A stretch of 35,482 nt of DNA from Halogeometricum pallidum JCM 14848 (GTDB lineage Archaea; Halobacteriota; Halobacteria; Halobacteriales; Haloferacaceae). The notes under the pieces are model-generated. The model had not been told where the DNA came from, did no database searches, and saw only the letters and a list, made by a program, of their open reading frames with translations. The position numbers and the translations under genes are program-made. Below are positions 5,967 through 29,909 of this stretch, piece by piece (position 1 is the first letter of the stretch; every line of letters starts with the position of its first letter). The DNA lies in contig NZ_AOIV01000034.1 of NCBI RefSeq assembly GCF_000337095.1, positions 1-35,482 of the forward strand, in the 5' to 3' direction.

Positions 5967-6530
5967 GGCTCTGTCGAAACCCTCAGCACCAGATAGATGT
6001 CGTGTGCGGACTATAGAGGTTGAATCTCTTACGGAGGCCCGTTGATTCCGTCTCATTGGCGCTGAACTGGCTGCTAAGTGTGTATGCGAGAAGATTAGCT
6101 CAGATGTCGAATCCGTTTCGCTTGAGTGCCTCTGCCAACTCCCCATCAGGGTCAGCCACAAACTCAATCAACGATGACTCAGGCCTTGTTGTGGTATATA
6201 GTTCAGAGTCAATATTGTCGGGGATTTCGTTCGCGTGCGTCTTGTCTACAACTGCAACTGATATTTTTGGCCTCGTGTTCGCGTCTTTTGACTCACTCAT
6301 TAACTGATAGTACAGGGAAGGGATGTTTGGCTTTTGCCATCGAGTGTAAAATCCCGATTTGCCCATATTGAATGCCGAATCGATGACCGATTCGCGCCTC
6401 TATTCAGCACGTCCACACCAACCTCACCAAACGCTGTCAAAAGTGTCGTGACCGATACAGAGGGTGTATTCAGCACAGCACTGCGATTCGTTTCACGCTT
6501 CTTGTTGTAGGACAACCGTTCAGTAGATTC
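5967..6530. mobile_element. Insertion-sequence remnant region
   Basis: The left edge at 5967-5983 (GGCTCTGTCGAAACCCT) differs by one base from 21414-21430 and resembles the inverted-repeat ends of IS6-family elements. Toward the right edge, 6431-6475 matches 28218-28261 and 6483-6527 resembles 21478-21530. No transposase remains. The interval now carries the small minus-strand gene at 6100-6300. Family naming rests on end similarity from memory. Confidence 0.45.
6100..6300 (-). CDS. Hypothetical 66-aa protein
   Basis: A 66-residue protein starting MSESKDANTRP and ending ALKRNGFDI. An earlier in-frame ATG would add 22 residues (MGKSGFYTRW...), but these lie in what looks like noncoding debris, so the ATG at 6300 is preferred. 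The C-terminal half (SSLIEFVADPDGELAEALKRN) is a credible small domain. I do not recognise it. It lies inside insertion-sequence debris and was probably carried in with it, or interrupted by it. Confidence 0.5.
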   Translation of the reverse strand: MSESKDANTRPKISVAVVDKTHANEIPDNIDSELYTTTRPESSLIEFVADPDGELAEALKRNGFDI

Positions 6531-9711: not shown

Positions 9712-10836
9712 ATGACCACACTCCCCACACTGTTCGAGACCTTCCTGTCAGACATCCGCCCGCAGGATGAGCACAATGATGCCTACAAGGGGGGCCACGA
9801 AACCCTCCGCGATCACTTGCAGAATGACGATGACATTAACGAGTTCTACGTTGCAGACTTTCTACAGGGGAGCTATCGTCGGTGGACGGCACTCAGACCG
9901 CAGGAAGACGAGGAATCCGACGTTGACGTCGTCTTTGTCTCTGATCTCAGCAGTGACCTTGATACCCACGCAGCGCTGGAGAAATGCGAGCCGTTCCTGA
10001 ATGAACACTATGAGGGACAGTGGGAGCCGAATGCCCACTCCTACAAAATCGAGGAAGAGAAGGTGGAGATTGATCTCGTCTTGACAGCGGCACCGAGCGA
10101 GGCAACACGTGAAGCCGTCAAATCACTGGGTTCATTGGACGTGGGAACAGCCCTGAGTCCGGACGACCTTTCGACCGTGGCAGAGGCCCTCAATATGTCG
10201 GCAGATGGTGACGACGAGTGGAAGGACGAACCGCTCAAGATTCCACATCGAGATGAGAACGAGTGGGAGAATACCCATCCCCTCGCGGCTATCGCCTTCA
10301 CCGTTAATAAGAACGATATCACGGATGGCCACTACGTGAACGTCGTCAAGGCCATCAAATGGTGGCGGCGAACGAAGACACCTGACGTCGAAGGACCGAC
10401 GAGCTATCCCCTCGAGCACATCGTTGGCCAGTGCTGTCCTGATGATATCGACAGCGTCGCCGAGGGCGTGACAAGGACGCTCGAAGAACTCACACGGCAG
10501 TTCAAGACCGAAGCAATGGCTGAGGAAGCCCCTACCCTGCCTGCTCACGGTCTCCCGAGAACCTCCGAGAATGACGTCCTCAAACAAATCGACGGGAAAG
10601 ATTTCGCGGCGTTCTACGATGAGGCAGAGGATGCCGCAGAACTCGCGCGGACAGCACTGGATGAGGAGGACAAAGAAACATCGAGGGATTACTGGTACCA
10701 GCTCTTCGGTGAAAAATTCCCTCCCTTCGGAAGCGACGACGATTCTGACGACGGAGGGGAGAAAGCCATGTCAGTAGGGTCGTCCTCACAGGTAGAGGAT
10801 CCATCTGACCACCAGTTCGCCGTGTCGGACAGCTGA
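9712..10836 (+). CDS. cdnA: CBASS CD-NTase, cyclic oligonucleotide synthase
   Basis: A 374-residue cGAS/DncV-like nucleotidyltransferase, the phage-sensing enzyme of CBASS. The N-terminal helix leads to the G-S motif LQGSYRRWTALRP (Gly53-Ser54), then the metal-binding pair in SDVDVVFV (Asp70, Asp72) and the third acid in VEIDLVL (Asp121). All three catalytic carboxylates are present. The helical domain includes VVKAIKWWRR and PTSYPLEHIV, typical of the family. On infection it should make a cyclic di- or trinucleotide; the SAVED effector downstream favours a cyclic trinucleotide. It is first in a three-gene operon, 8 bases before the next start. The C-terminal 40 residues are acidic and disordered. 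The exact CD-NTase clade cannot be assigned by eye. Confidence 0.93.
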   Translation: MTTLPTLFETFLSDIRPQDEHNDAYKGGHETLRDHLQNDDDINEFYVADFLQGSYRRWTALRPQEDEESDVDVVFVSDLSSDLDTHAALEKCEPFLNEHYEGQWEPNAHSYKIEEEKVEIDLVLTAAPSEATREAVKSLGSLDVGTALSPDDLSTVAEALNMSADGDDEWKDEPLKIPHRDENEWENTHPLAAIAFTVNKNDITDGHYVNVVKAIKWWRRTKTPDVEGPTSYPLEHIVGQCCPDDIDSVAEGVTRTLEELTRQFKTEAMAEEAPTLPAHGLPRTSENDVLKQIDGKDFAAFYDEAEDAAELARTALDEEDKETSRDYWYQLFGEKFPPFGSDDDSDDGGEKAMSVGSSSQVEDPSDHQFAVSDS

Positions 10837-10844
10837 CGTCATAA

Positions 10845-13181
10845 ATGCCTCCCCACGAAATTACAGAAGCCGTCGCAGCCATCGCCGAACAGGATGGAGT
10901 CACCGTCCTCAAAGACCCATATCGACACGACAGCAACGGACGGTGGATTGTCAAGATCAGGCTTTGTCCAGACGACTTAGAACCCCATCCAGACGTGCCA
11001 CGCGAGACGGACTGGTATCTCCATCTACAGGATACGTACCCCGCCGGTTCAATTGGGATCTACCCTGCGGATCAAGAAGAGAACACCATTACCGCCACAT
11101 TCCCCCACCAGAAGCTGAACGTTGCTGGGAGCGACGATACTCCGTGGCGACGAGGCGATATCTGTGTTGCTCGGTATGGACACACCCTCAGTCAAACGGG
11201 AGCCACCGGCGAACCCAGCACAAGCCGTGATCGACTCTGTTGGCATATGGACCGAGCATTGCGGTGGTTAAGTAATGCTGCGAAAGGGGAACTCCGGAAA
11301 CCAGACGAACCGTTTGAAATCCCAGCCTTCGATACAAACTCGGCTTCGGCCACGACCATCGCATTCAACGAGACGCAGGAGTCGTTCTCAGACTGGAGGA
11401 CAATGTATGGACAGTGGGGGACAGTCGACCTCCGCTCGTTGCCAACTGCTGAGGAGACATACGCGACTGGTACGTTCAAAGACAACGACGATGAAGTCGT
11501 CTATCAGCCACAATGGGGCGGATACATCGATTCGAATCCTGATGACTCTGTTTCCGGAGCGTGGGCATTGTTAGAAGAGTTGCCGATTGAACCCCCGTGG
11601 GAGGCCCCGGAGACGTGGGAAGAGTTAGGCGTATTTTTCGATGGTACCGAGACTGACCCGTACGAACTACGGGCGAATATCAAGCCCGTGTTGGACGATG
11701 AACCGGTCAAGATTCTTCTAATCGGGTTCCCCATCCCAGCAACGGTCGACGGCAATCCCGAGATGATCTATTGGCAACCAATCGAGATCCAAGAGTTCAA
11801 AGATCCGAATGACCTTTCCGGCGGATTTCGAGATACTGGAAAGGGGCCTGAGATAGCCGAACGGCGGGAAGCAGGAGAGGAACAGATTCGGTGGCTGGAC
11901 TCGGACAACTGGTCGCATGAGCAGCTCACCAGACGCGGACATATGACGGAGTGGTTTCTGGATCGAAATATCGTGCTCATCGGAGCGGGAGCGCTCGGCA
12001 GTATGGTTGCCGAGAATCTCGTTCGAGCCGGCTGTCAGCAGCTTACCATCGTCGACAACGACACGTATGAGATCGGCAACGTGGCTCGCCACACACTAAC
12101 AATCGATAATGTGGGGCGAAACAAGGCGACAGCAATCGCGGACCGGCTTGAATCAATTGCACCGTACGCCCACGTCTTTGATGTGGATAGCGCCTTTCCA
12201 CCGAGCGGTGAGCTGCCGGAGCCAATCAGAGAAGCGGAGGTAGTAATTGACTGTACCGCGTCACGGGGAGTTCGTCGCGCTCTTGATGCGATTAGATGGA
12301 ATCAGCCGGTCGTGTTTTGCTCTGCGGCTATGGGTCGGCGAGCGAATCGGTTGTTCTGCTTCACAGCTTACTCACATACCTTTCCGTACAGCGATTACAA
12401 CGAGGCGTTCGATCCATGGCGGTTACAAGAACAGATCGAATGGGACGAAGATGAGGATGCCATCCCCGAGCGAGTCGGGTGCTGGCACCCAGCATCAGTT
12501 ATCCGAACGGACCGGGTGATGACGTGGGCAGGGACAGTGACACGACTTCTTGATCAGGCGACGGCATTGAGTCTGCGCGAGAATCACTTCACCGTACTCG
12601 AGACCGGTAGTGGCGACGAACTGCCGACCATTTCACAGGCCACACCCCCCTTCCAGGATGGAACAATATGGCGAGCACCGGAATCACCAATCACCGTACA
12701 GATTCCGGCCACGTGTCTTGAAGCGATGTATGAGCGCTGTCGGAAAGAACATCCCTGTGAAACGGGCGGTATTCTGGCTGGAACCGACCGTCTCGATGGA
12801 CCAGCACTGGTGGTTAATGCCCGAGACCCACCACAGGACTCTATTCAAGAACCAACTCGATTCCTCCGCGGAACCGACAAAGTCGAGGAGTGGCTCAAAG
12901 ACGCTAGGGAGAGCATCGGCATCGACTATCTCGGAGAATGGCACTACCATCCCGGCGCTTCACCCGATCTCAGTCGGGACGATCGGACTGCGATGAATGA
13001 AATCGCCGACGACGATGGCTACGACTGTCCCCATCCGCTCCTCTTCATCGTTGGTCAGGACGAAGACGGTCAGTTCACGATCAACGCCTATCTGTTCCAC
13101 GATAGTAAGGAATACGAGCAGTTAGAACGGATTGACAACCCAGATGCGGCTACAACTCTCAACGTCGGTGACGATACATGA
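10845..13181 (+). CDS. CBASS E2-E1-JAB fusion (Cap2-Cap3)
   Basis: A 778-residue protein joining the three ubiquitin-like conjugation modules of type II CBASS. Residues about 1-160 are an E2-like domain, with candidate catalytic Cys107 (RRGDICVA) after FPHQKLN; Cys132 is the alternative. Residues about 365-620 are an E1/ThiF adenylation domain: NIVLIGAGALGSMVAENLVR binds nucleotide, and Cys546 in VGCWHP is a candidate E1 cysteine. Residues about 630-770 are a JAB/JAMM isopeptidase with Glu in CETGGILAG, the zinc ligands HYHP (His700, His702), and the downstream Ser and Asp in SPDLSRDD. In known systems Cap2 conjugates the CD-NTase C-terminus to targets to prime it, and Cap3 reverses this. Here both activities are one chain. 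The stop overlaps the next ATG by four bases. Confidence 0.93.
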   Translation: MPPHEITEAVAAIAEQDGVTVLKDPYRHDSNGRWIVKIRLCPDDLEPHPDVPRETDWYLHLQDTYPAGSIGIYPADQEENTITATFPHQKLNVAGSDDTPWRRGDICVARYGHTLSQTGATGEPSTSRDRLCWHMDRALRWLSNAAKGELRKPDEPFEIPAFDTNSASATTIAFNETQESFSDWRTMYGQWGTVDLRSLPTAEETYATGTFKDNDDEVVYQPQWGGYIDSNPDDSVSGAWALLEELPIEPPWEAPETWEELGVFFDGTETDPYELRANIKPVLDDEPVKILLIGFPIPATVDGNPEMIYWQPIEIQEFKDPNDLSGGFRDTGKGPEIAERREAGEEQIRWLDSDNWSHEQLTRRGHMTEWFLDRNIVLIGAGALGSMVAENLVRAGCQQLTIVDNDTYEIGNVARHTLTIDNVGRNKATAIADRLESIAPYAHVFDVDSAFPPSGELPEPIREAEVVIDCTASRGVRRALDAIRWNQPVVFCSAAMGRRANRLFCFTAYSHTFPYSDYNEAFDPWRLQEQIEWDEDEDAIPERVGCWHPASVIRTDRVMTWAGTVTRLLDQATALSLRENHFTVLETGSGDELPTISQATPPFQDGTIWRAPESPITVQIPATCLEAMYERCRKEHPCETGGILAGTDRLDGPALVVNARDPPQDSIQEPTRFLRGTDKVEEWLKDARESIGIDYLGEWHYHPGASPDLSRDDRTAMNEIADDDGYDCPHPLLFIVGQDEDGQFTINAYLFHDSKEYEQLERIDNPDAATTLNVGDDT

Positions 13182-14425
13182 CTAACCCAACTGGCCGTGT
13201 ATTTCTCAGCTATAAGCACGAACAGACGGACGTCGCCAACTTCCTGCAAACGGAACTGGAGCGACACGGGGTGCCGATTTGGCGGGATATCTTCGATTTG
13301 AAGCCGGAGCCACTCAGAGATGAGATTATCGACCAGTTGGAGAACCCGGAAACTGCCAGTGGTATTGCGCTCGTCAGTGAGGGCGTATCCGACTCCGACA
13401 TCATTCTTAACGACGAGTTGCCGGGATTCAACAAGCGATGGGACAGTGATGACGAGTTTTTCGTGGTTGTTGTGCCATGTCCCGATATCAGCGTTGGAGA
13501 AGCGAAATCGATCCTTAACGAAGCTCCGATCCTCCACGGCTTTTCCGCCTGGAAAATGCTCCCCCTAGAGGCGACCACGTCTGACAAAGCAACAGATATC
13601 ATTGATGGAGTGTTATCAGAGCGGATCGAGCGGATAGATGGGTATTTGCCGGACGGTGAGCCTCTCGAATGTTCACTTGACACCTACGATTCGCCCGCTC
13701 ACGACATCGATCCCGCGATTGCTATCGACTGGTCAAGATCTTTCGAACATGGCCCACCATCCCAAGAAGTATGGAACCAGCGTCTACTCCCAGCTTTAAC
13801 CACGGTGGCGGACAGTCTCATTCAAAACGCATCGGGCCGCCCCCTCCGCTTCCGTGGCCGAACGCATCTTCCCGCTGCGTTCGCAGCCGGTTACTATCTC
13901 CCAACCACACGTCGTATCCAAGCAACGTGGATGCAACCCACTGGGCCCACCGGAATGACCGAATGGACGCTCGATATCGACGAAGAGGAAAGCGGGTTAG
14001 AAGGTGATCTTCAGCGACAACCGAATCACGGATCCGAGCTTGCTGTTCTCGTCAACATCGCTGCCGACGTGCAACCAGAGGTAGACCAGATGCATAACGA
14101 GCTTCCGGATTTCAATGGTGTGCTCAGATTGATACCAGAGGACGGGCCTGATGTGGAATTGTCCCCGGCACAGGCAGCCCATGCTGCAGATGTTTTCCGT
14201 ACCAAGGTACGAAACGCGGTTAAAGAACTGCCCAAAACATCGACTATTCATCTCTTCATGGCCGGCCCTACAGGGCTCGCCTTTTTCTTCGGACGAAAAT
14301 CAAACACACTCAGACCGATCCAGACCTACCTCTACAGCAAAGACGAGGGTCGGTACTATCCTGCTGGTCGATTACAGAATCAGTCACTTTCAGACGACTC
14401 AGGCACCGTCTCAGGAGATCAATAG
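13178..14425 (+). CDS. TIR-SAVED CBASS effector
   Basis: A 415-residue two-domain effector. Residues about 5-150 are a TIR domain: RVFLSYKHEQTDVANFLQTE forms the first strand and helix, GVPIWRDIFDLKP the BB-loop region, and GIALVSEGVSDSDI the next strand. Glu80 in LNDELP is a candidate NADase glutamate. Residues about 190-405 are a SAVED sensor (LPAAFAAGYYLPTTRRIQAT, then IHLFMAGPTGLAFFFGRK), the CARF-related fold that binds cyclic oligonucleotides. The expected action is oligomerisation on binding the CD-NTase product, NAD+ cleavage, and death or dormancy of the infected cell. It is the last gene of the operon, overlapping the fusion gene by ATGA. Thirteen residues after SAVED are probably disordered. 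Confidence 0.92.
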   Translation: MTNPTGRVFLSYKHEQTDVANFLQTELERHGVPIWRDIFDLKPEPLRDEIIDQLENPETASGIALVSEGVSDSDIILNDELPGFNKRWDSDDEFFVVVVPCPDISVGEAKSILNEAPILHGFSAWKMLPLEATTSDKATDIIDGVLSERIERIDGYLPDGEPLECSLDTYDSPAHDIDPAIAIDWSRSFEHGPPSQEVWNQRLLPALTTVADSLIQNASGRPLRFRGRTHLPAAFAAGYYLPTTRRIQATWMQPTGPTGMTEWTLDIDEEESGLEGDLQRQPNHGSELAVLVNIAADVQPEVDQMHNELPDFNGVLRLIPEDGPDVELSPAQAAHAADVFRTKVRNAVKELPKTSTIHLFMAGPTGLAFFFGRKSNTLRPIQTYLYSKDEGRYYPAGRLQNQSLSDDSGTVSGDQ

Positions 14426-28261: not shown

Positions 28262-28351
28262 AACGGAGGTGCTCCGTTTCCGCCAGCTGGCGATAGAACA
28301 ACTGAGAGGGTGGTGTGCGAACTTAGTAGGTTGATTTCCGAGTGAGTGGGT

Positions 28352-29533
28352 CTATTTCTGAACCAGAGAACTCTCAGGGTAGCCTGCTCGCCGCCGCGCA
28401 ACCTGTCGCTCATCCTCTGTCAAGCGGAACTGTTCCAACTCGTCTTCGAGCGAGCCAAGTGACCGGCGACGTTCTTGATGTACTTCGAGGAAGTTCGTGA
28501 TCTTCTTCGCCGCCATCTCTTTGAGTTCACCACTCAGGAGTGACCCCTTTCGATACTCGCGTGCAAACCGTTCTACCTGCTCATCACTTTCTTCAAAGAA
28601 GTAGTACAAAAACTGATACGAGACATCTACCTCAGGGTTCCCTCCCTGCTCTCGATGTTCTTCGAGACTCGTCTGTCCACCAGAATAAGCATGGGTGCGG
28701 ATTTTGTCGAAGACCGTCTCCCGGTCGTCTGAGAGGAGGATACTCGGTGCATCGTCGGACGAACTCATCTTCCCCGGCCCTTCGAGGCTCGGGAGGAACT
28801 TCGAGAGCAAGGCACCGGGCTTGGCCACATCGTACCGTTCCTTTGCCGCGATGTCCCGACAGACTCGAACGTGGGGGTCTTGGTCAACCGCAATCGGGAC
28901 GAGCGTCGGATGGCGGCCCTCCACAAGTTGTGGGAGGAGGAGATGTGTGGCTTGGACAGCAGGGTAGAACGAGAGACCGATATTCTTGGGTTCTCCATAT
29001 GTTGCGTCCACGGTCGCTTGCGTCACTTCCTTGGCAAATGCAGTCGCTAGAGGGTACACCACGTCAGCGTCCGCCGTGTCTACGACGATTCGGGTTCGTT
29101 TGGGGTCAAACTCGACTGCGAGAAGGTCGAGCAGGTTCTCGCGGGTGTATTCGCTAATTTCGTCCAGCGACTTGTCTTTGAGGAAGTACTTCTCGTCGTC
29201 GGAGAACGGAATATAGACGAGAGTTCCCGTCTGATCTTGCAGATACTTAGCGAAGTAGAACGGGAAGATGTGACCGATGTGCATCGGTCCTGAGGGACCG
29301 CGGCCCGTCACGATGGAATGTGGTTTACCTTCGTTGGCGGCATCAAGGAATGGGTCTACGTCGCGCTCTGCATAGAACACACCACGGCGCACGAGCGGAT
29401 GGCTAGGGTCAGGAAACTTAGCCCTCTGCTCGGTAGTGAGGGCATCAGCCCCGAACTTGTCTAGGAGTCGGTCGTAGTCGATGTCGCCTTCGACGGCGTA
29501 TGGCGTTACGGTGAAATCGTCTTCTGCTGGCAT
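28352..29533 (-). CDS. trpS: Tryptophanyl-tRNA synthetase
   Basis: A full-length 393-residue class I synthetase that charges tRNA(Trp). It has an archaeal/eukaryal-type TrpRS N-terminal extension (TVTPYAVEGDIDYDRLLDKF), the HIGH motif at residues 85-88 (PMHIGHIF), the KMSSS motif at 255-259 (GKMSSSDD), and the tryptophan-site region (AVDQDPHVRVCRDIA). No frameshift is seen. A housekeeping enzyme on an accessory element is unusual: it may be a second copy with different drug sensitivity or regulation, or the only copy if the replicon is essential. The leader contains a large hairpin. Confidence 0.95.
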   Translation of the reverse strand: MPAEDDFTVTPYAVEGDIDYDRLLDKFGADALTTEQRAKFPDPSHPLVRRGVFYAERDVDPFLDAANEGKPHSIVTGRGPSGPMHIGHIFPFYFAKYLQDQTGTLVYIPFSDDEKYFLKDKSLDEISEYTRENLLDLLAVEFDPKRTRIVVDTADADVVYPLATAFAKEVTQATVDATYGEPKNIGLSFYPAVQATHLLLPQLVEGRHPTLVPIAVDQDPHVRVCRDIAAKERYDVAKPGALLSKFLPSLEGPGKMSSSDDAPSILLSDDRETVFDKIRTHAYSGGQTSLEEHREQGGNPEVDVSYQFLYYFFEESDEQVERFAREYRKGSLLSGELKEMAAKKITNFLEVHQERRRSLGSLEDELEQFRLTEDERQVARRRAGYPESSLVQK

Positions 29534-29641
29534 GTGTGTTTGATGGTTGTAGTCACTTTGGAGGTAATGCGATTGAGAGAGCGAGTGAGCATCGCGGTCG
29601 AATCCGCCGGGTTAAGCCCGTCTGACTCTAAACCACGCTAC

Positions 29642-29693
29642 TGTCCACTTCCCAAGACGCGTGCCAACGCCAGCAATTGGCGTGGGGAGTGGA
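29642..29693. other. Long hairpin in the trpS leader
   Basis: The outer arms GTCCACTTCCC and GGGGAGTGGAC pair with one mismatch, and an inner perfect stem ACGCCA/TGGCGT has a five-base loop. It lies 110-160 bases before the trpS ATG on the opposite strand sense. It could be a leader RNA structure, a terminator or an operator. The rest of 29534-29866 shows no convincing gene. Confidence 0.5.
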
Positions 29694-29866
29694 CACCATA
29701 TTGACATCGACAAGGTTGCACTGTTTATAGGTTCTGTTTCCCTCCTTATCTTGCAATACTACTTCTTCACTGTCCATATCAGCAAACTTCGGTGGGCGAT
29801 ACGCACGCTGTCTGTAGCGGCTGTCTCAGGACGAAATCTGCATGAAAAACCATCCTCACAACTACC

Positions 29867-29909
29867 GTTAACCAACAAAGAGTACCGCTTTCTTCGGATG
29901 TTGGTTAAC
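29867..29909. repeat. Hairpin element, copy behind ardC
   Basis: GTTAACCAACA at 29867-29877 and TGTTGGTTAAC at 29899-29909, perfect 11-base arms whose starts are 31-32 bases apart. It lies 14 bases after the stop of the ArdC-like gene and marks the left boundary of that module. Confidence 0.8.

Follow-up and report, generated by a model that had tools for sequence, protein, structure and literature searches.

A conserved tryptophan-codon leader before tryptophanyl-tRNA synthetase genes of Halobacteria: a candidate ribosome-mediated attenuator

Introduction

The leader of the bacterial trp operon (the trpL attenuator) carries Trp codons in a short ORF and switches between 1:2 and 2:3 pairings of its RNA. 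T-box leaders precede bacterial aminoacyl-tRNA synthetase genes and bind tRNA directly, and the trpRS1 gene of Streptomyces coelicolor has a ribosome-mediated attenuator. TrpRS1 has been linked to indolmycin resistance (PMC9437257). According to a 2021 paper, no transcription attenuation was known in archaea. Among the matches listed from the open-licence literature (titles and the starts of abstracts), none reported attenuation by a leader peptide, or a Trp leader, from archaea, and the accessible portions of PMC8116511 and PMC3436685 contained nothing on an archaeal Trp leader or on attenuation. A dRNA-seq study of H. volcanii reported short upstream ORFs in 16 long 5'-UTRs (PMC4983044). As far as we found, this type of Trp-starvation switch, well known in bacteria, was apparently undescribed in archaea.

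Here we describe the region upstream of an auxiliary tryptophanyl-tRNA synthetase (TrpRS) gene, trpS2, on a stretch of 35,482 nucleotides from Halogeometricum pallidum JCM 14848 (contig NZ_AOIV01000034.1, hereafter the window; G, C, L and f numbers are our labels for genomes, contigs, loci and families). The best reading of this region was a haloarchaeal trp attenuator mediated by the ribosome. Similar to trpL, it had Trp codons in a short ORF, and its RNA might alternate between 1:2 and 2:3 pairings. In contrast to trpL, it would control a TrpRS gene rather than biosynthesis (it was absent from 30 trpC and 30 trpD loci), and a U-rich element in its arm 3 replaced the terminator hairpin. With the T-box it would share feedback on a synthetase gene by the charging of its own tRNA, but it would use a translating ribosome and a leader peptide, and it had no Rfam match. 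As with S. coelicolor trpRS1, an auxiliary TrpRS gene was located behind a Trp-codon leader peptide, and induction would be expected when Trp-tRNA falls. On the other hand, the haloarchaeal element was archaeal, its leader ORF was predicted to be leaderless, no bacterial-type terminator was found in it and it also stood before canonical TrpRS genes, while the enzyme was nearest to eukaryal-type structures. With respect to the two haloarchaeal enzyme types, TrpS2 (NF008927-type) and TrpS1 (NF008928-type), the window gene was a normal TrpS2 but belonged to an accessory group found over five families.

Results and Discussion

The trpS2 gene

The trpS2 gene was a complete and intact ORF at 28352..29533 on the minus strand, encoding 393 amino acids with the HIGH (PMHIGH) and KMSSS (GKMSSS) signatures. 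Its product scored 572.9 bits against the NCBIfam tryptophan--tRNA ligase profile NF008927 (cut-off 478). The yeast TrpRS structure 2ip1 aligned with it, and the nearest structures were of the eukaryal type. Judged from its sequence, the product is a tryptophanyl-tRNA synthetase and a normal member of the NF008927 type. An earlier note on this DNA had read a complete trpS in the region 28352-29693, which agreed with the ORF and its profile score.

The 4.38-Mb assembly contained two TrpRS genes: trpS2 on contig C34 (the window) and the canonical long TrpRS gene, trpS1, on contig C23 (13857-15563), whose product was 33-34% identical to TrpS2. The note had called for a count of trpS copies and had suggested a second TrpRS on accessory DNA; with two copies in the assembly, trpS was not single-copy at this place, and the suggestion held. 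As another explanation, it had named an essential gene that keeps the replicon stable. This idea fits the relative G223, in which the sole TrpRS found was on a putative plasmid (contig C3), but it was not favoured for the window genome because a canonical TrpRS exists elsewhere, on C23, and we consider it very improbable here.

The leader ORF and its hairpin

Upstream of trpS2, where the earlier note had placed a 52-base two-part hairpin, there was an inverted repeat with 13-nt arms that were 92% complementary and 28 nt apart, forming a 54-nt element. Reading the upstream regions of relatives revealed that this hairpin encloses a leader ORF with Trp codons. In the window the ORF encoded 23 amino acids (MVSTPHANCWRWHASWEVDSSVV, followed by a stop codon) at 29628..29699 on the minus strand, as were the other leader features given below; it was delimited from these upstream regions and by frame analysis. 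Arm 1, TGTCCACTCCCCA, was located at 29683..29695 and arm 2, TGGGAAGTGGACA, at 29642..29654, both identified by the inverted repeat and by covariation; the partner of arm 2 was arm 1 or, in models, arm 3. Trp codons 10 (29670..29672) and 12 (29664..29666) were in the loop, and Trp codon 16 (29652..29654) overlapped arm 2. A central hairpin between arms 2 and 3 was predicted by the minimum-energy fold at approximately 29592..29640 and was absent from the RNAalifold consensus. Arm 3, at 29575..29590, was a conserved pyrimidine- and U-rich element, GCTCACTCGCTCTCTC, with a putative role as an off-signal masked by arm 2.

The covariance model R1 matched the whole leader (29561..29705) with 102.6 bits, a score that is not independent since the window leader was one of the 60 rows used to build the model. 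The folding energy of the leader was unremarkable (z of -1.46; 20 of 200 shuffles folded at least as well). The structured regulatory leader proposed in the earlier note was therefore upheld by covariation in 60 aligned relatives and by the covariance-model match, not by folding energy. With regard to known elements, the leader had no Rfam match at the gathering threshold or up to E of 1, by which a T-box or another known RNA family was ruled out, and a tRNA gene was rejected since ARAGORN found none in the window.

Covariation and frame preservation

We analysed 130 loci, namely the window copy, 29 other loci and 100 further fetched ones; two of the 130 were distant relatives (34-35%). In the alignment of 60 sequences, 94.1% of the cells of the ten-pair helix 1:2 were paired. 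Two-sided changes were found in 66 cells compared to 20.2 in shuffles (0 of 500 shuffles reached this value) and in six pairs compared to 3.7 (reached by 3 of 500), and the covariation score was 0.317 compared to 0.157 (0 of 500). Sliding the helix by 1-3 columns reduced the pairing to 36-54%. RNAalifold, applied to the whole alignment, returned helix 1:2 and no other. Moreover, in 113 of 121 sequences arms 1 and 2 paired more favourably with each other than with arms swapped in from other sequences.

The reading frame was preserved along with the helix. Every one of the 60 leaders had an aligned stretch of 3, 6, 9, 12, 15, 18 or 21 letters between arm 1 and the Trp core, and in all of them the aligned start column and the core were separated by a multiple of three. 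In a wider set of 124 leaders, the frame was kept from start to core in 101 of the 102 where both elements could be anchored (22 dropped), and from core to arm 2 in 107 of 112 (12 dropped). Counted in the frame with the most Trp, the 124 leader peptides contained one Trp codon in 8 cases, two in 72, three in 39 and four in 5; the eight leaders with a single Trp codon were a counterpoint to the proposed sensing. The residue between Trps was Arg in 114 of 146 cases, encoded by CGC (89), CGT (15), CGG (6) and CGA (4). Short Trp-rich ORFs preceded 111 of the 130 TrpRS loci and 8 of 213 control ORFs, the controls being other ORFs of at least 200 amino acids in the same loci, many of which are not genes.

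An exact pattern of the arms with the loop ignored, which was derived from these same leaders, had 45 matches in 155 genomes, while its reversed control had none. By eye, TGG was present in the loop of 44 of the 45, and the exception preceded a GNAT ORF in G010. In locus L055 (G181), a TGA stop replaced the Trp codon of the relatives and shortened the leader peptide, leaving the hairpin arms intact.

These comparisons made it nearly certain, as far as sequences can tell, that a translated Trp leader lies inside a conserved hairpin. Two features expected of an attenuator were apparent: a short, apparently translated ORF with cognate codons before the gene to be controlled, and a conserved RNA hairpin that a stalled ribosome could open. 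The frame-preserved leader peptide, its Trp codons, helix 1:2 and the link to TrpRS genes were well supported by comparison.

The hairpin might instead be a protein-binding RNA or a DNA operator, for TrpRS autoregulation or a Trp-responsive repressor, with the leader ORF incidental. The arms did share sequence besides their pairing, and many trpC starts in Halobacteria carried an operator-looking, palindrome-like TGTACA pair. However, neither a protein site nor a DNA site needs a frame kept in 60 of 60 leaders over seven loop lengths, a conserved Trp core or synonymous Arg codons. Both the preserved frame and the covariation indicate an RNA that is translated, so the operator was not favoured and appeared very improbable to us; an operator or a chance hairpin was rejected on these grounds. 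Of the regulatory RNA and the operator offered in the earlier note, the RNA was favoured; the Trp-codon leader peptide had been missed.

Distribution in Halobacteria

A sequence profile built from 69 leaders found the leader in 124 of 128 trpS2 loci (the 130 without the two distant ones; the 69 being among the 124) and missed L032, L033, L051 and L130. The covariance model, built from 60 of the 124 including the window leader, matched 164 of 391 genomes of Halobacteria at E up to 0.001. Six of these matches were at noise level, with E above 1e-5 (G004, G061, G193, G228, G253 and G268). Since they resembled the noise outside the class, 158 genomes was the safer count. Outside Halobacteria, nothing exceeded 24.9 bits in a phylum sample of 392 genomes; a spread beyond the class was rejected, the nine genomes of other groups that matched at 19-25 bits being at noise level.

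Across the 391 genomes, trpS2 was present in 136, and 131 of these had the leader. The five without it were G195, where trpS2 was broken, G223, G274, G383 and G278. Among the other 255 genomes, 33 had the leader without trpS2 (six of the 33 at noise level) and 222 had neither. A Fisher value for this association would not be a true probability since the genomes are related. Outside the listed trpS2 rows, 26 leader places were noted and 20 were fetched. Canonical trpS1 was directly downstream in 17 of the 20; the remaining three preceded a trpS2-type stretch (L189), a GNAT-like ORF (L182) and an ABC-transporter-like ORF (L190). In the window genome, the sole leader match was at trpS2, with none seen at trpS1.

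TrpS1 often carried the leader in genomes without trpS2, therefore the device would be feedback on TrpRS in general. This bears on the possibility that TrpS2 is kept as a drug-resistant enzyme, in the manner of Streptomyces TrpRS1 and indolmycin, with the leader as the inducer-sensing part. The duplicate TrpRS, its accessory location and its plasmid spread would suit such a role, and inhibition of TrpS1 would likewise reduce Trp-tRNA and set off the leader, but the presence of the leader before TrpS1 in genomes without trpS2 argued the other way. We regard drug resistance as an unlikely explanation.

Three leaderless genomes had no detected canonical TrpRS. They formed one clade (support 100) placed next to the group of the window (93), so leader absence in genomes with TrpS2 as the sole TrpRS counts as one event. 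Because of this single clade, and because TrpS1 carries the leader where trpS2 is missing, the absence was weak evidence, and the proposal of leader loss in every genome with TrpS2 as its sole TrpRS lost ground accordingly. Genome G278 (L130/L332) was an exception with trpS2, no leader and an unrelated-looking upstream region; its canonical trpS1 match contained a single in-frame TGA.

Leader-like elements with zero or one Trp codon were observed before GNAT-like ORFs at L331 (G010:C2:2009702-2009834, minus strand) and at L182/L333 (G160), and another before the ABC-transporter-like ORF at L190 (G275); these ORFs were named by eye. The leader architecture may serve other genes besides TrpRS.

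Promoter and transcript start

When the loci were aligned on the start codon of the leader, AT content peaked at -36..-34 and -30..-26, and also at -11, and the consensus CGAAACCCTTTTTTCC spanned the first two peaks. In the window, a TATA-like box, TATAAA (29724..29729), began 30 nt before the leader ATG. BRE/TATA spacing of this kind is usual in haloarchaea. The position of this BRE/TATA-like signal suggests that the transcript starts at or near the leader ORF, with its first nucleotide at or close to the ATG. Farther upstream of the trpS2 promoter, at 29867-29909, there was a perfect 11-nt inverted repeat, GTTAACCAACA/TGTTGGTTAAC.

A possible switch between arms 1, 2 and 3

Downstream of arm 2, a conserved GCTC(A/C)CT block was followed by a T-rich stretch, in which the T fraction was 0.47 at +10 to +20 compared to 0.03-0.28 in the other ten-base bins. 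The pairing of arm 2 with its own arm 3 had a mean energy of -12.08 kcal/mol compared to -12.02 for swapped partners, the own partner being better in 60 of 121 sequences; by this comparison, specific coevolution of arms 2 and 3 was not seen in the 121 sequences. Against a shuffled arm 3 (-11.09 kcal/mol) the own partner was better in 80 of 121, a modest gain. The RNAalifold consensus did not contain a helix between arms 2 and 3.

Partition-function models of 122 leaders used standard energies at 37 C and ignored molar KCl. Before arm 3 was made, P(1:2) was 0.94; in the full leader, P(1:2) was 0.75 and P(2:3) was 0.18. With a ribosome at the first Trp codon, modelled as covering the RNA to a point about 14 nt beyond the first base of that codon, P(2:3) was 0.77. 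It exceeded 0.5 in 107 of 122 leaders and was above the control with a shuffled arm 3 (0.50) in 108. For the window leader, P(1:2) was 0.88 before arm 3, and P(2:3) was 0.87 in the stalled state (control 0.59). Without a ribosome its full leader fitted the switch less well, with P(2:3) of 0.68 and P(1:2) of 0.19.

A bacterial intrinsic terminator (a GC hairpin followed by a U run) was not found in 28300-29900, where U runs were short. According to PMC8716108, archaeal transcription stops at U-tracts to which aCPSF1 binds, and most of these terminators do not strictly require a hairpin; the binding work described there was on Methanococcus, and its U-tracts were longer than those in haloarchaeal arm 3. 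Since a T-rich arm 3 stood in place of a hairpin-plus-U-run terminator, we classed the element as one that would work like an attenuator, but not as an attenuator of the bacterial type.

The main rival to termination as the output step was translational control. Here the same sensing by a stalling ribosome would act on translation or on mRNA stability, through access to the trpS start or re-initiation there. The leader evidence applies to this alternative equally, the window leader had no bacterial-type terminator, and the distance from the leader stop to the trpS start was mostly 75-100 nt. However, the conserved U-rich block was located in arm 3 and away from the trpS start, to which arm 3 showed no complementarity by eye, and the stop-to-start distances ranged from 28 to 189 nt, partly from uncertain gene starts. 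We consider this output possible though not probable, with odds that overlap those of the best explanation.

Proposed mechanism

In the preferred reading, an attenuator acting through the ribosome, transcription would start at or just before the leader ORF, and the resulting leaderless mRNA would therefore be engaged by ribosomes immediately. With ample Trp-tRNA, the ribosome would pass the Trp codons, arm 2 would be paired with arm 1 or covered by the ribosome, and arm 3 would be exposed, serving either as a U-tract terminator of the archaeal kind (aCPSF1/FttA) or as some other off-signal. When charged tRNA-Trp runs short, through starvation or a failing or inhibited TrpS1, the ribosome would stall on W-R-W and cover arm 1; arm 2 would then pair with arm 3 as an antiterminator, mask the off-signal and allow TrpRS to be made. 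In the window genome, TrpS1 would serve as the regular enzyme, with TrpS2 kept in reserve and induced on demand; a leader on TrpS1 alone would provide simple feedback. A stress-specific TrpRS, as the earlier note had proposed, agrees with a leader that would respond to a shortage of charged tRNA-Trp.

We infer that the leader is translated, that ribosomes stall on it, that arms 2 and 3 form the switch and that the output step follows. Sensing of Trp-tRNA by way of the ribosome was quite likely, regardless of the nature of the output; given such sensing, transcription termination would be a rather probable output. We lean slightly towards the full proposal, namely that this is the first ribosome-mediated transcription attenuator in Archaea, with a leaderless Trp-codon peptide and a masked U-tract terminator, that it serves either of two divergent TrpRS types and that it moves with trpS2 on megaplasmids. 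If true, archaeal transcription and translation would be coupled so tightly that a ribosome translating a leader peptide could determine whether a gene is expressed, attenuation control would work without a terminator hairpin, and the second TrpRS on haloarchaeal megaplasmids would have a reason linked to its function. Intact leader ORFs preceded trpS2 in Halobacterium salinarum and Haloferax mediterranei, and the leader makes the question of archaeal attenuation testable in these harmless and genetically tractable archaea.

A general Trp regulon was rejected because trpC and trpD loci had no such leader. For trpC, 59 genomes were searched, and the 30 loci examined contained a single Trp-rich short ORF, which we attributed to chance; the leader profile had no match in them at E under 0.7. 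Some of the gene starts in these loci were certainly placed too early. For trpD/trpF, 30 loci out of 39 genomes were examined, six of them with under 350 nt of sequence upstream, and there were four Trp-rich short ORFs; all contained the reading LNCRPPPC and were discounted as shared unrelated sequence. A palindrome-like TTATGTACA...TGTACA block, perhaps a repressor site, was located just upstream of trpC in many of the 30 haloarchaeal loci (L271-L300).

Accessory DNA and the spread of trpS2

The earlier description of trpS among defence and plasmid genes was accurate. The surroundings of trpS2 included ParA-like and ArsA ATPases, an Orc/Cdc6 protein, a second ORF with a Cdc6 lid, a CBASS-type operon and AbiEi; an ArdC-like match scored below its cut-off. 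The CBASS-type operon (9712-14425, plus strand) encoded a SMODS synthase, an E1/JAB protein and a SAVED protein, the last with a TIR match just under the cut-off, and was located beside replication and partition genes.

In a quick tree, 22 TrpS2 proteins at least 72% identical to that of the window formed one side of a single branch (SH-aLRT 98); this accessory group came from five families (f1, f3, f4, f8 and f9). Over the whole query, the leader together with trpS2 was 90.9% identical to a segment of the Haloferax mediterranei plasmid pHME505 and 93.8% identical to one of a Natronorubrum aibiense plasmid, and the neighbours differed in both cases. The leader ORF was not annotated among the rows listed in the two plasmid gene tables. 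Similarity to the window ended at 28342 and 29757 in three of the six relatives compared (L335, L005 and L007), extended further in two and was shorter in one. An imperfect 21-nt inverted repeat (81%) flanked the unit of leader and trpS2 in L336, on the N. aibiense plasmid. A mobile cassette with sharp ends was considered but is not claimed. A viral origin of trpS2 was also rejected, as there was no close relative in viral contigs and the seven phage records were all below 30% identity.

In G223, the only TrpRS found (L033) was an essential-looking gene on contig C3 (326,684 bp), the putative Halobaculum marinum plasmid NZ_CP119991. Two places in the window, 1466-1537 and 6455-6527, resembled the flanks of trpS2 on the N. 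aibiense plasmid (79-83% identity) and were perhaps copies of a repeated element.
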